In this document: positions 13,292 through 17,795 of the stretch, piece by piece
Layout of the letters: each line of letters begins with the position of its first letter
Position numbering within the stretch: position 1 is the stretch's first letter
Assembly (NCBI RefSeq): GCF_001570605.1
Contig: NZ_BBXG01000006.1
Location: forward strand, 310,001-374,000
DNA: 64,000 bases
Source: Herbidospora cretacea
GTDB lineage: Bacteria; Actinomycetota; Actinomycetes; Streptosporangiales; Streptosporangiaceae
Direction: 5' to 3'
The notes under the pieces: model-generated
What the model saw: the letters and a program-made list of their open reading frames with translations, nothing else
Databases searched by the model: none
What the model was told of the DNA's origin: nothing
Program-made: the position numbers and the translations under genes

Positions 13292-13650
13292 CTGTATCTC
13301 CGGCCTCAGTGGTTTTCCGATGCACGTGCATCCGTGCTGCCCATCTGGCCGAGCGCCCAGCTCGAAGGCCGCGGCCCGGCGTGCACCCGGGTTGTGGACC
13401 TGGCTTCAGTGCGATGGCCGATCGCGACTTGACCCGGGATTCGTCGCTGCCACGCTGCGTGTCCGCTGCGCTGCGCTCGGCGAGAAACAGCAGGTGAAAC
13501 AGAAAGAAATCGCGGCACAGGTGCGTGCCGCGATTCCGGGGTTCGTGCTGTGGCCGGGGGTCCGGTCCCGGTGCCTGGGGCCGGTGGGGGAGGCTCACAT
13601 GGGGTTCACACTAGGAAACTTCTCTTGACTTTCCTGACTCACGTAACGAG
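13292..13650. other. Gene-poor stretch
   Basis: About 360 bases in which I see no convincing gene on either strand. Base composition is more mixed than in the flanks. It holds the leftward terminator at 13501-13532 and an inverted repeat at 13634-13654. Confidence 0.5.
13501..13532 (-). terminator. Rho-independent-like terminator for leftward transcription
   Basis: Read on the minus strand, an 8-bp stem (CGCGGCAC / GTGCCGCG, 6-base loop) is followed by ATTTCTTTCT. This is a better U tract than most in the window. It would end a transcript from the small peptide gene at 13651-13779. Confidence 0.65.
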
Positions 13651-13654
13651 TCAG
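13634..13654. repeat. Inverted repeat over the stop codon of the small peptide gene
   Basis: CTGACTC and GAGTCAG arms (7 bp) with a 7-base loop span the TGA of the peptide gene. It could stabilise the mRNA end or bind a dimeric regulator. Confidence 0.4.
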
Positions 13655-13779
13655 CAGCATTCGATGCTGTAAGTCCGCAAGGGGGACGAACTGGCGCTTG
13701 CGGCCGTAGCATTGACCCCTGCGGCGGTGATCGTCGCGATAAGGGTCGTGAAGGCAATCATGATCAGGCGGCGTCGCAC
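13651..13779 (-). CDS. Small secreted Cys-Cys peptide, candidate signalling pro-peptide
   Basis: A 42-residue gene too short for most gene callers. The GTG start has a ribosome site GGGAG with 7-base spacing. The product starts MRRRLIMIAFTTLIATITAAG, a clear signal peptide (three Arg, about 18 hydrophobic residues), followed by AxA-type cleavage options (NATAA or ASA) and a short tail ending SSSPLRTYSIECC. It is followed by a U-tract hairpin at 13501-13532. Its start codon lies only 50 bp from the divergent start of an HTH-TPR regulator. The layout (exported mini-protein with a C-terminal peptide beside a TPR regulator) resembles RRNPP pheromone pairs. A small non-signalling secreted peptide is the alternative; no homolog is known to me. 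Confidence 0.6.
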   Translation of the reverse strand: MRRRLIMIAFTTLIATITAAGVNATAASASSSPLRTYSIECC

Positions 13780-13829
13780 GGTGGGGCTCCCGTCGGGTTA
13801 AGAGGTCCTTCATCTTTCAGGGGGTGCTG

Positions 13830-15119
13830 GTGACCGGTCAAGATCTAGTGGGTCAGCGCATCAAGACCATCCGCCGACAGCGGGGGCTCTCTCAAGCGCA
13901 ACTCGCACATCCTGAGCTGTCCGACAGCTATGTTTCCCTAATTGAGAGCGGTAAGCGTACTCCTACTCCGGCAGTTCTGGAGCTCCTGGCCCAGAAACTC
14001 GACTGTTCGCTGACATATCTCGTCAATGGGGTTACCGCCGAACAGATGGACGAGATCGAGGTCGGGCTGCGATTCGCCCGTCTCGCGCTGGAGAACGGCG
14101 AGGCGCAGGAAGCCCGCCGCCGCTACACCGAACTCCTCACCGACACCAGCCTCACCGGCCTGGCCCAGCTCCGCCAGGAGGCCGAATACGGCTGCGCCCT
14201 GGCGACCGAGGCGTGCGGCGACCGGGCCGAGGCGATCCGCCTGCTGAAGGGCCTGCGCGCCGACACCGAGCGCCCGATGTCGGTCGAGTGGCAGGTGGCC
14301 GTCGCGGTCGCGCTCTGCCGCTGCCACCGCGACGAGGGCGAGCTCGGCGAGGCCGTCCGCGTCGGCGAGGCGCTGCTCGGCGGCACCACCCGCCCGGCCT
14401 GGACCGACGCCCTGATCGAGCTCGGCTCGACCCTGCTCTCGGTCTACCGCACCCGCGGCGACCTGCTGCGCGCCCGCCACTTCGCGGCGGAGCTGCTGTC
14501 GGCCGCCGAACTGCTCGGCACCCCCCGCGCCATCGTGGCCGCGTCGTGGAACGCCGCGTTCGTCGCCCAGGAGACCGGCCGGGGCGAGGAGGGCATGAGC
14601 CTCCTCGAGCGCGCCATGGCCATCCACTCCGAGAACGGCGACCACCGCAACCTGGCCCGCCTGCGCGTGGCCTACGCGACCATGATCGTCCGCACCCGCG
14701 CCAGCGACGTCGAGGCCGCCCGCGACCTGCTGATCCGCGCCCAGCGCGAGATGGGCGAGTCGTCGGCCTCGGTCCTCGACAAGGCCCGCTGCCAGATCGA
14801 GCTGGGCCGCACCGAACTGGCGCTCGGCAACCCCCGCCAGGCGGTCGAGAACACCCGCGCCGCCGACGAGATGCTCCGCGAGTCCCGGGGCGAACACTGG
14901 GCCGACGCCAACCTGGTCCAGGGCCAGGCCCTGCTGATCCTCCACGAGGACGAGGAGGCCGCCGTCGCCCTCGGCCACGCCACCGAGGCCTTCGACCCGG
15001 CCCCGATGCGCCGCTGGGCCCAGAGCTGGATGACCGTCGCCGAGGCCTACGACCGCCTCCACGACCACGAGCAGAGCATCATCGCCGCCCAGAAGGCCCT
15101 GGCCTGCGTCGGGCTCTGA
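13830..15119 (+). CDS. HTH (XRE) domain regulator with TPR repeats
   Basis: A 429-residue regulator. Residues about 1-68 form an XRE/Cro helix-turn-helix (LVGQRIKTIRRQRGLSQAQLA, SYVSLIESGKRTPT). The remaining about 350 residues are helical repeats of TPR type (for example ENGEAQEARRRYTELL, GDRAEAIRLLKGL, GELGEAVRVGEALL, NPRQAVENTRAADEML). The HTH-TPR architecture is that of RRNPP-type peptide receptors and of several actinomycete regulators of development. The GTG at 13830 has AGGGGG upstream; an in-frame GTG at 13824 overlaps that site. No membrane segment is present. The divergent small secreted peptide gene is the natural candidate for ligand and target. The first 65 codons are less GC-biased than the rest. 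Confidence 0.85.
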   Translation: MTGQDLVGQRIKTIRRQRGLSQAQLAHPELSDSYVSLIESGKRTPTPAVLELLAQKLDCSLTYLVNGVTAEQMDEIEVGLRFARLALENGEAQEARRRYTELLTDTSLTGLAQLRQEAEYGCALATEACGDRAEAIRLLKGLRADTERPMSVEWQVAVAVALCRCHRDEGELGEAVRVGEALLGGTTRPAWTDALIELGSTLLSVYRTRGDLLRARHFAAELLSAAELLGTPRAIVAASWNAAFVAQETGRGEEGMSLLERAMAIHSENGDHRNLARLRVAYATMIVRTRASDVEAARDLLIRAQREMGESSASVLDKARCQIELGRTELALGNPRQAVENTRAADEMLRESRGEHWADANLVQGQALLILHEDEEAAVALGHATEAFDPAPMRRWAQSWMTVAEAYDRLHDHEQSIIAAQKALACVGL

Positions 15120-15234: not shown

Positions 15235-15792
15235 ATGAAGAGTTCACCGATCGTCGCCGTTCTGGCCGTCGTCGCGGCCCTTCTTCTCCCCGCCGCCCCG
15301 GCCGCCGCGCACACCTCCCTGCGCGGGAGTGATCCCGCGGAGAACGCGCAGGTCGCCGTGCTGTCCAAGATGACGCTCGAGTTCACCGAGTCGGTGCGGT
15401 TCCCGGCCGTCGTGCTGACCGGGCCCGACGGCGAGCGCTACGAGAACGGGAAGCCGAGGGTGGAGGGCCGCAAGGTCATCCAGGACGTCGGTCCCGCCCA
15501 GGCGCTGCCCTCCGGAACGTTCACGATCGCCTACCGGGTCGTCTCCAAGGACGGGCACCCCGTCGAGGGGGAGATCCCCTTCACCTACGCCCCGGTGGAC
15601 ACGCCCAAGGCCGGGTCCGCCGAACCGTCGACCGCCCAGCCTGCCCTCGCGCAGGCGGCGGCGCCTTCGGAGAACCCGGCCGGGAAGACCGGCGATGACG
15701 ACCGGCAGATCCCCGCGTGGATCTGGGTGGTCGTCTTCGGGATCGCCGGGATCGGGATCGGCATGGCCTTCAGCATGCGCAAGAAGCCCTGA
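15235..15792 (+). CDS. copC: CopC/YobA copper-resistance domain protein
   Basis: A 185-residue secreted, membrane-anchored copper protein. It has a signal peptide cleaved after PAAPAAA, so that the mature protein starts at the copper-ligand His (HTSLRGSDPAEN). The second CopC signature SKDGHPVEGEIPFTY holds the other His. A Ala/Pro-rich linker leads to a C-terminal membrane helix (WIWVVVFGIAGIGIGMAFSM) and a basic tail, the usual actinobacterial form. The TGA overlaps the ATG of the CopD-CtaG gene by one base, so both are co-translated. Likely role: binding copper outside the membrane and handing it to CopD/CtaG for import or oxidase assembly. Confidence 0.92.
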   Translation: MKSSPIVAVLAVVAALLLPAAPAAAHTSLRGSDPAENAQVAVLSKMTLEFTESVRFPAVVLTGPDGERYENGKPRVEGRKVIQDVGPAQALPSGTFTIAYRVVSKDGHPVEGEIPFTYAPVDTPKAGSAEPSTAQPALAQAAAPSENPAGKTGDDDRQIPAWIWVVVFGIAGIGIGMAFSMRKKP

Positions 15793-17795
15793 TGGCCACG
15801 ATGAGCAGGGCCGTCCGGCTCGCCGTCGCGGGCGGGTGCGCCGCCGCCGGGGCGCTGGTGGTCGGGATGGTCGCGGGCGGGGCCGCCACGCCGAGGGTCA
15901 TCCCGGGGCTGCCCGACGAGGGCACGCTCACCCGGTGGATGGTGCCGGTCTCCAAGCTGGGCATGGACGTCGCGGGGCTGCTCACCGTCGGGCTCCTCCT
16001 CATGGCCGCCGCGTTGCTGCCCTCGGACAAGGGCCTGCTCGGCAAGACGGCTCTCGGATACGTCAAGGCCGCCTCGTGGGCGTCGCTGTTCTGGGGCGGG
16101 GCCGCCGCGCTCAACCTGGTCTTCGGGCTGTCGCAGTCGCTCGGCCAGCCGGTCGGCGTCGTGCTCGAAGGCAACCAGCTCACCAGTTACGCCGGGCAGA
16201 CGCCGCAGGGCATCGCCCTGACGCTCGTCGTGCTGTTCTCGGTCTCGATCGCGCTGTTCGCGCGGGGGGCCATCACCGTCGGGGCGGCCGGCGGGCTGCT
16301 GGTGTTCTCGCTGGCCACGCTGCTGCCCCCGGCGCTGACCGGACACTCCTCCAGCTCACCCAACCACGGGCTGGCCACCACCTCGGTCGCCTTCCACCTG
16401 CTCTTCCTGGCCCTGTGGGTCGGCGGGCTCGGGCTGCTCTGCTACCACGCCCTGCGCGGGCACGACCGGCTCTCGCTCGCCGCCGACCGCTTCTCCCGGA
16501 TGGCCTTCTGGTGCTTCGTCGGGGTCGGACTGTCGGGGCTGGCGTCCGTCGCGGCCCGGATCACCTCGATCACCGTCCTGTTCACCTCGGCGTACGGGCT
16601 GCTGCTCCTCCTCAAGATCGCCGCCTACGCCGCGCTGGGGGCCGTCGGCTGGTGGCACCGCAAACGCACGCTGCCCGATCTGGCCGCCGGGCGGCCGATG
16701 GCATTCGTGAAGCTGGTGCTCGGCGAGATCATGCTCATGGCGGGGACCGTCGGCATCGCCGTCGCGCTGGCGCAGACCGCGCCGCCGCCGGTCGCGGACC
16801 TGCCCACCGACCGGGCGTTCGACCTGCTCGGCTACGTCATGCCGCCGCCGGTCTCGTTCACGAACCTGCTCACGCTCTGGTGGTTCGACCTCTTCTTCGC
16901 GGTGATCGCCGCGGTGCTCGCGGGCCTGTACGCCGCGGGGGTCGTCCGCCTCGTCCGGCGCGGTGACAAGTGGCCCCTCGGGCGGTCGATCGCGTGGGGC
17001 GTCGCCATCGTCATCCTCGTGCTGACCACCCAGAGCGGGGTCGCCCGCTACGCGCCGGTGCTGTTCAGCGTCCACATGACCGAGCACATGGTGCTCTCGA
17101 TGCTGGTGCCGATCTTCCTCGTGCTCGGCGCGCCCGTGACGCTGGCGCTGCGCGCGCTGAAGCCGGCCGCGCGCCGGGGCGACCGGGGGCCGCGCGAGTG
17201 GGTCACCGTCGTCCTGCACAGCCGGGTCGCCAAGTTCGTCGCCCATCCGGCGATCGCGACGGCGCTGTTCGTGGTGTCGACGTACGCGCTCTATTTCACC
17301 CCGCTGTTCGCCTCGGCCATGGAGGAGCACCTCGGGCACATCGCCATGTCGCTGCACTTCCTGCTGACCGGGACGCTGTTCTTCTGGGTGATCGTCGGGG
17401 TCGACCCCGCACCGAACAAGCTCCCCCATTTCGGGCGGCTGCTGCTGCTGTTCGTGACGATGCCGTTCCACGCGTTCTTCGCCATGGCCATCATGAGCAT
17501 GGGCAGCGTGCTGGCCTCCGACTGGTACGACCAGCTCGGCCGGACCTGGGGCGCGTCGTCGCTGTCCGACCAGAACACCGGCGGGGCCATCGCCTGGGGG
17601 TTCGGCGAGATCCCCACGCTGATCGTGCTGATCGCGCTGGCGATCCAGTGGTGGCGGGCCGACGAGCGGGTGGCCCGGCGGCACGACCGCAAGGCCGACC
17701 TGGTCGCGGCCCGTTCGGGCGGCTCGGGAGACACCGAGCTCGACCAGTACAACGACTATCTCGCGAAGCTCAACAAGCGTGATCAAAAGCGGTGA
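15792..17795 (+). CDS. CopD - CtaG fusion, copper import / cytochrome oxidase assembly membrane protein
   Basis: A 667-residue polytopic protein. The N-terminal about 380 residues are a CopD domain (many helices; GHSSSSPNHGLATTSVAFHLL and LWVGGLGLLCYHAL), and residues about 395-645 are a caa3-type CtaG domain (SVHMTEHMVLSMLVPIFLVLG, HIAMSLHFLLTGTLFFW, VTMPFHAFFAMAIMSMGSV). Both domains are rich in membrane His and Met that can move copper. CtaG helps insert copper into cytochrome c oxidase. The start overlaps the copC stop (TGATG). The 45-residue hydrophilic C-terminal tail is charged. Fusions of these two domains are known in actinobacteria. Confidence 0.9.
   Translation: MATMSRAVRLAVAGGCAAAGALVVGMVAGGAATPRVIPGLPDEGTLTRWMVPVSKLGMDVAGLLTVGLLLMAAALLPSDKGLLGKTALGYVKAASWASLFWGGAAALNLVFGLSQSLGQPVGVVLEGNQLTSYAGQTPQGIALTLVVLFSVSIALFARGAITVGAAGGLLVFSLATLLPPALTGHSSSSPNHGLATTSVAFHLLFLALWVGGLGLLCYHALRGHDRLSLAADRFSRMAFWCFVGVGLSGLASVAARITSITVLFTSAYGLLLLLKIAAYAALGAVGWWHRKRTLPDLAAGRPMAFVKLVLGEIMLMAGTVGIAVALAQTAPPPVADLPTDRAFDLLGYVMPPPVSFTNLLTLWWFDLFFAVIAAVLAGLYAAGVVRLVRRGDKWPLGRSIAWGVAIVILVLTTQSGVARYAPVLFSVHMTEHMVLSMLVPIFLVLGAPVTLALRALKPAARRGDRGPREWVTVVLHSRVAKFVAHPAIATALFVVSTYALYFTPLFASAMEEHLGHIAMSLHFLLTGTLFFWVIVGVDPAPNKLPHFGRLLLLFVTMPFHAFFAMAIMSMGSVLASDWYDQLGRTWGASSLSDQNTGGAIAWGFGEIPTLIVLIALAIQWWRADERVARRHDRKADLVAARSGGSGDTELDQYNDYLAKLNKRDQKR

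Follow-up and report, generated by a model that had tools for sequence, protein, structure and literature searches.

The window, the 64-kb stretch of Herbidospora cretacea DNA that was analysed, contains two divergent genes separated by 50 bp: a precursor gene for a small, predictedly exported peptide ending in Cys-Cys and a gene for an HTH-TPR regulator. The precursor gene (13651-13779, reverse strand) has 42 codons, a GTG start and a TGA stop, and is kept beside orthologous regulators. Its 42-residue product, read directly from the ORF, is VRRRLIMIAFTTLIATITAAGVNATAASASSSPLRTYSIECC. The leader, residues 1-29 (13693-13779, reverse strand), is signal-peptide-like, with an RRR N-terminus, then a hydrophobic core and an A-S-A site at its end. 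Here, as for the relatives described below, the export call is made from hydropathy and the A-x-A motif alone; such a site is present in 114 of 130 distinct Cys-Cys (CC) peptides. Cleavage at this site would leave a predicted exported tail of 13 residues, SSSPLRTYSIECC (13654-13692, reverse strand), whose last eight residues, RTYSIECC (13654-13677, reverse strand), are the predicted ligand core, marked by co-variation within positions -8 to -3 and by a CC end constrained at the protein level. Of the 13 signal-peptide-like ORFs that our criteria find in the window, this is the only one with a CC end. Neither the window peptide and 10 others compared with NCBIfam nor eight peptides compared with Pfam gave a match at or above cut-off to a known small-peptide family.

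The peptide gene has a ribosome-binding site, GGGAG, 7 nt before its start (13787-13791, reverse strand). Downstream of the gene is a terminator-like hairpin with a 14-pair stem and a T-rich tail (13506-13537, reverse strand; 0.5 expected by shuffling), kept in 7/7 Herbidospora loci. Across the wider family a hairpin occurs at 15 of 134 loci versus 3 shuffled, and a family-wide terminator was rejected, the feature being clear in Herbidospora only. The intergenic region of 50 bp (13780-13829) contains the ribosome-binding sites of both genes, and the promoters of both must lie in it or overlap it. No sigma-70-type promoter match was found there. In an alignment of 120 intergenic regions, read by eye, the ribosome-binding sites are conserved; an operator palindrome was also looked for, and none is clear.

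The regulator has 429 residues (13830-15119, forward strand). Its likelier start is 13830, preceded by AGGGGG 5 nt upstream; 13824 is a possible alternative. Residues 11-64 (13860-14021, forward strand) form an XRE-type helix-turn-helix (Pfam HTH_3, E 1.8e-11), followed by Pfam TPR matches; no metal-sensor domain was found with Pfam, and no NCBIfam model matches the regulator at its cut-off. An AlphaFold2 model built from 63 sequences (mean pLDDT 90.6, pTM 0.81) is all helical except for isolated bridge residues, and residues 70-426 (14037-15107, forward strand) are modelled as a TPR superhelix. Direct reading, hydropathy and these searches bear out what the first-pass annotation had described at the locus: a 42-codon gene with a ribosome site, a signal-peptide-like leader and a short CC tail, followed by a U-tract terminator and starting 50 bp from a regulator with an XRE helix-turn-helix and TPR repeats.

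Among the best 60 PDB matches of the sequence profile, PlcR (E 2.2e-10, profile positions 4-188) and NprR (E 6.8e-7) are the best natural bacterial proteins, beside designed and eukaryotic TPR proteins. Among the 50 best matches of the fold search, the PlcR-PapR-DNA complex (3u3w) ranks 14th with E 1.5e-6, and the Rap phi3T-pheromone complex aligns with TM-scores of 0.54/0.62. LGN and designed and eukaryotic TPR proteins match the regulator as well or better, by both sequence profile and fold. TPR folds are general, which counts against the signalling reading given below; the matches to PlcR, NprR and Rap count for it.

Of 297 genomes sampled from the window's family, 187 contain the regulator (E up to 1e-60). 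At class level its profile matches 52 of 296 sampled genomes (E up to 1e-40), and a phylum-level search finds it in 33 of 396 genomes (E up to 1e-45). The nearest relatives come from loci of six named Herbidospora species, with 92-97% regulator identity. The surrounding DNA was read for 283 regulators at 277 loci, which cover part of the 187 regulator-bearing family genomes; removal of identical proteins left 207. For 135 of these 207 distinct regulators, the divergent neighbour is an ORF that starts like a signal peptide and ends exactly in Cys-Cys-stop. Another 20 have an exported ORF in this divergent position but without CC-stop, and 52 lack an exported ORF there. The 158 regulators of the window's family (loci below L221) divide into 105 with CC, 19 with a non-CC peptide and 34 with none; the twentieth non-CC case, L265, belongs to another family.

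A scan of both strands over the whole flanks, with criteria laxer than those of the shuffle control below, finds an exported CC-stop ORF in another arrangement at 9 of the remaining 72 loci. It is convergent and downstream in six (L224, L251, L254, L255, L257, L258), upstream on the same strand in one (L249), and downstream on the same strand in two Streptomyces plasmid loci (L241 and L244, the latter 1.9 kb away). Because of these nine loci, the CC peptide cannot be put down to a single promoter layout. Hits with SCCAC ends or Cys-rich stretches near downstream genes were dropped (L067, L070, L073, L086, L109, L121, L170), as was that of L087, which is the neighbouring regulator's peptide. 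In L096, L099, L260 and L265 the CC is followed by one to seven residues, and four of the family's 34 regulators with no peptide found upstream have a CCYE peptide.

Beyond the window's family, eight family groups of the class, identified by code, contain the CC pair, as do two Streptomyces plasmids. Within a 700-bp limit and in any arrangement, it is present at 20/21 loci of group f21, 5/5 of f16, 5/7 of f28, 2/3 of f11, 2/3 of f40, 1/2 of f27, 1/1 of f29 and 1/1 of f22. On the Streptomyces linear plasmids (L241:4601-4816, L244:6220-6384) the tails KDIPLCC and GDLPLCC lie downstream of a homologous regulator; among the annotated records opened, the CC peptide on these two plasmids is annotated as 'hypothetical protein'. 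At the phylum level 29 loci were read. Outside the class, three of them have the tails APWPHCC, APWPPCC or APFPGCCG, and eleven (L299-L304, L306, L307, L313-L315) have divergent exported ORFs of 28-54 aa with aromatic-Pro tails such as YPWPK, NWPHH and GWPKH; one more, NWPHVP, comes from group f55. These aromatic-Pro tailed ORFs may represent the signal in its older form. Four further loci of the 29, from group f20 inside the class, which is presumably Streptomyces, carry divergent exported ORFs with unrelated tails lacking CC (L320, L324, L325, L327), three of which share A-A-N-x-G-P at the leader end. Nothing clear lies beside the regulator at the other 11 of the 29 loci. Much of the class has the pair, and related versions occur beyond it. 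The first-pass annotation, which placed it 'in an actinomycete', was correct about the pair and too narrow about its scope; absence of the peptide beside regulator orthologs, which had been set beforehand as one of the refuting outcomes, was not what we found, the pair being kept across many families.

The CC end is not expected by chance. Under the same criteria that find it at 135 of 207 real regulator loci, a CC-ended exported ORF appears in 0 of 4080 dinucleotide-shuffled regions of 460 nt; an exported-looking ORF of any kind appears in 260 of them. Of the 286 signal-peptide-like ORFs lying no more than 700 bp from a regulator, 149 end in CC. Farther away the count is 4 of 84: three encode the partner peptides of tandem regulators, and the last is the Streptomyces ORF at 1.9 kb. 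Both Cys codons vary between TGT and TGC, and TGA, TAG and TAA are all used as stop, so the constraint acts on the protein. Constraint measured by dN versus dS among the Herbidospora peptide genes is moderate: in 21 pairs, dN is below dS in 14 and equal to it, at 0.12, in three, and four show no amino-acid change, three of these being without any change.

The remainder of the tail varies extensively. The 130 distinct peptides have 121 different last-8 sequences; positions -3 to -8 are highly variable, and Cys at -1 and -2 is present by construction of the peptide set. We compared this variation with that of the putative concave groove of the TPR domain, taken as helix-A positions 2, 5, 6, 9, 12 and 13 of eight repeats; this choice follows the TPR numbering convention. 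The groove set was fixed after the comparison of residues between CC and non-CC receptors and before any calculation of tail co-variation, and was never adjusted. For 94 family receptors more than 6% apart (105 minus 11 near-identical), tail distance over -8 to -3 correlates with groove distance with a partial r of 0.181 once the rest of the TPR domain is removed. In the control, 500 entropy-matched position sets average 0.046 (sd 0.040) and none reaches 0.181. The top 25 co-varying positions include 10 groove positions, the groove making up 37 of the 264 positions tested. When the groove comb is slid along the sequence, the correlation is highest without displacement and has smaller maxima at -3, +3 and +4, the pattern expected of one helix face.

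Co-variation with the groove is absent from tail segments -14 to -9 (z -0.2) and -20 to -15 (z -1.8), and for the signal peptide the trend is weak (z 1.3), its value being reached by 33 of 300 random sets. Taken singly, tail positions -3, -6 and -7 are prominent, unlike -4 and -8. Since co-variation is confined to -8 to -3 among the tested segments, it suggests that the ligand is the last 7-8 residues.

A FastTree phylogeny of 206 of the 207 receptors, one short row being left out, places the receptors of the family's 19 non-CC peptides in one clade (24 rows, 5 of them peptide-less; support 98), nested among CC receptors; CC was lost in a single event. In 17 of the 19 the tail is of the W-x-x-P type (GWNHPD and GWGWPG are examples), the exceptions being L016 and L193. 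Named members of this clade belong to Streptosporangium, Planobispora and Planomonospora; L157, also titled Streptosporangium, has a CC peptide and lies outside it. Residues that CC receptors retain in both near and far families are replaced in the non-CC receptors (n=20, L265 included): T201 to Q in 15, A237 to L in 17, N241 to G or A in 16 and N274 to R in 14. In the window regulator the stretch with T201, A237, N241 and N274 lies at 14430-14651 (forward strand). No significant enrichment in A helices is seen for the 18 residues that set CC receptors apart from non-CC ones (Fisher p 0.19). R164 and R277 also persist in most receptors that are peptide-less or have a non-CC peptide, and therefore cannot explain CC itself.

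Among the family's 34 peptide-less receptors, 22 carry E at groove position 241 and 10 carry R at 240. Peptide-less regulators occur in several genera of the family (L100-L102, L106, L109-L117, L120-L126). A distal peptide for orphan receptors was rejected on a search with one pattern: a PRVHCC-type peptide was found in 0 of 12 peptide-less genomes and in 2/2 positive controls. In two genomes of one genus the pair is in tandem, and the copy A tails share KDI[AF]CC (GKDIACC, AKDIFCC), with different tails for copy B. Copy A receptors of the two genomes are 86.5% identical, versus 85.6% for copies A and B in one genome; among the five receptors compared, the HTHs are 91-97% identical and the TPR domains 74-96%. 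Because of the A/B identity of 85.6% and a support of 84 for the copy-A grouping in the tree, this evidence is suggestive only. At L096:3732-5060 and L099:3715-5049, an exported CCYE peptide (GGGLCCYE, GGKCCYE) lies between two tandem regulators, with a paralogous receptor that groups in the tree with L002, one of the window genome's own paralogs, for which no peptide was found. A second, diverged receptor copy lies directly downstream of a complete pair at L290:7988-9280; no peptide of its own was found, and it is possibly an antagonist.

The genes, their conservation and association, the hypervariable tail with its fixed CC and the groove-tail co-variation are computed observations, and together we read them as very probably an unrecognised peptide signalling system. 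On the evidence of sequence, the CC peptide is, with good probability, a signal that is exported, and the regulator its cytoplasmic receptor, the two acting in the manner of RRNPP systems. The pairing, proposed in the first-pass annotation as RRNPP-like, gains support from the architecture, the PlcR and NprR profile matches, the PlcR-PapR and Rap fold matches and the co-variation of the last eight residues with the groove; the latter also gives computational backing to the idea that the tail is the ligand. We infer export, processing, import and binding, as well as the sign of regulation and a role between cells rather than in self-sensing. The precursor would pass through Sec, and signal peptidase, perhaps with a further protease, would free a short tail. 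Its last 7-8 residues, usually with a free Cys-Cys carboxyl end, would be re-imported, probably by an Opp-type permease; the window's genome encodes 13 OppA-type binding proteins. The imported tail would then bind the concave TPR groove and change DNA binding by the HTH, which would switch the divergent promoter region and a regulon. The CC end would serve as the common recognition feature, and the 5-6 preceding residues would provide species or paralog specificity.

A broader interpretation can be put forward tentatively. The tree shows tandem duplication, peptide loss leaving orphan receptors and one code switch from CC to W-x-x-P. The pairs could represent an old, phylum-wide peptide language of Actinomycetota, with one receptor lineage and co-inherited signals. 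CC would be an address read by a conserved TPR clamp, in which N241, R277 and R164 are proposed to hold the free carboxyl end in the manner of a carboxylate clamp. The residues before it would name the species, and redox or metal state may act through the two thiols to gate the signal. We had considered this reading evenly balanced, and now place it slightly on the doubtful side because R164 and R277 are kept without CC.

Other explanations were weighed. The TPR protein could be an export or redox sensor that binds the CC end of the unexported precursor, or an oxidised or reduced tail, and reports Sec capacity or the thiol state of the envelope. Such a sensor predicts the same association and groove co-variation, and the fixed CC suggests thiol chemistry; however, pure export sensing needs no hypervariable tail such as that of the 130 peptides, and the Cys pair is missing from one clade's W-x-x-P peptides and from the eleven WP-type peptides outside the class. 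We regard it as unlikely. The exported CC tail might instead chelate copper or zinc, with the regulator controlling neighbouring copper genes. In the window, copC and copD/ctaG follow the regulator (15235-17795), and CopC and CopD/CtaG lie just downstream of the pair in 50 and 51, respectively, of 60 scanned loci of the window's family. Yet neither CopC nor CopD was found at 13 loci of other family groups or at the window-family loci L290, L292, L293 and L295 in a tblastn search with E up to 1e-6 over flanking DNA of a few kb, in which distant relatives could be missed. The copper linkage was seen in the window's family alone and not in all of it, so it looks like local synteny. The regulator has no metal-sensor domain, and metal binding does not predict groove-tail co-variation. 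A copper peptide was rejected for want of a constant gene linkage, and metal chelation in general is very improbable.

Short hydrophobic exported peptides beside XRE regulators can also be toxins. A small exported toxin or antimicrobial under a dedicated HTH repressor, in the manner of toxin-antitoxin or bacteriocin loci, would agree with the rapid variation of the tails, but that variation is tied to the regulator's own groove, and no recurring immunity or export gene was seen by eye in the neighbour listings of 15 loci. This leaves a toxin marginally less credible still than a metal peptide. Chance ORFs, or conserved regulatory DNA misread as ORFs, might be suspected from the short intergenic stretch and the conserved ribosome-binding sites; against them stand the shuffled regions, the synonymous Cys codons, the varied stops and the convergent and same-strand arrangements. 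Chance ORFs were rejected by the shuffles and the distant-ORF counts, and for the family the whole explanation is already refuted, its probability being negligible. A phage or arbitrium origin was likewise rejected, on the grounds of chromosomal synteny and the absence of relatives of the regulator among viral contigs; a search of 50,697 phage records gave one match, an unannotated 'Bacteriophage sp.' scaffold.

If the signalling interpretation is true, a phylum noted for its antibiotics would possess a second signalling language, one that is genetically encoded. Its signals could be read from genomes and simply synthesised, so that activation of silent clusters, development and species specificity would become directly testable.

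Peptide receptors of the RRNPP kind are described for Bacillota in the available text of three papers (PMC10075063, PMC12700828, PMC13220807). The available part of a 2016 review lists 'TPR' among the putative quorum-sensing domains of some actinobacterial genera. The literature searched, which lacked most subscription journals and all preprints, described no actinobacterial system of this kind.

Among the known systems, PlcR-PapR of the Bacillus cereus group resembles the pair in its HTH + TPR regulator, by both profile and fold. PapR is an adjacent small exported precursor whose C-terminal end is the signal, as is predicted for the CC peptide. The Herbidospora pair differs in its phylum, in a longer TPR array (429 aa), in a mostly divergent gene order and in a signal that usually ends in Cys-Cys. 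In the Rgg-SHP and ComR-ComS systems of Streptococcus, short hydrophobic precursors are often divergent from an HTH-TPR regulator. The WP-tailed versions of 28-54 aa outside the class look SHP-like; ComR, on the other hand, is matched by sequence in its HTH only (best 60 rows), and its tail code differs. NprR-NprX and Rap-Phr have a TPR receptor of an imported peptide, as is proposed for the pair, with profile (NprR) and fold (Rap) matches; a phosphatase role is not known for the CC regulator, and Rap proteins have no DNA-binding HTH. The arbitrium system of phages, AimR-AimP, also combines an HTH-TPR receptor with a short exported peptide; for the CC regulator, no relative was found in viral contigs and the synteny is chromosomal, which speaks against carriage by temperate phages. 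The NsdA-family TPR regulators of Streptomyces are weakly similar in the TPR region (E 0.0022), but the NCBIfam model NF053720 scores 17.6 bits against a cut-off of 75. The N-terminal HTH with a C-terminal TPR superhelix, typical of the transcription-factor branch of RRNPP receptors, is present in the window regulator. So is the adjacent short propeptide gene, of 42 aa and 50 bp away, with counterparts at 135 of 207 loci and 9 more in other arrangements. RRNPP membership of the regulator is likely, and the pair probably works like an RRNPP system.
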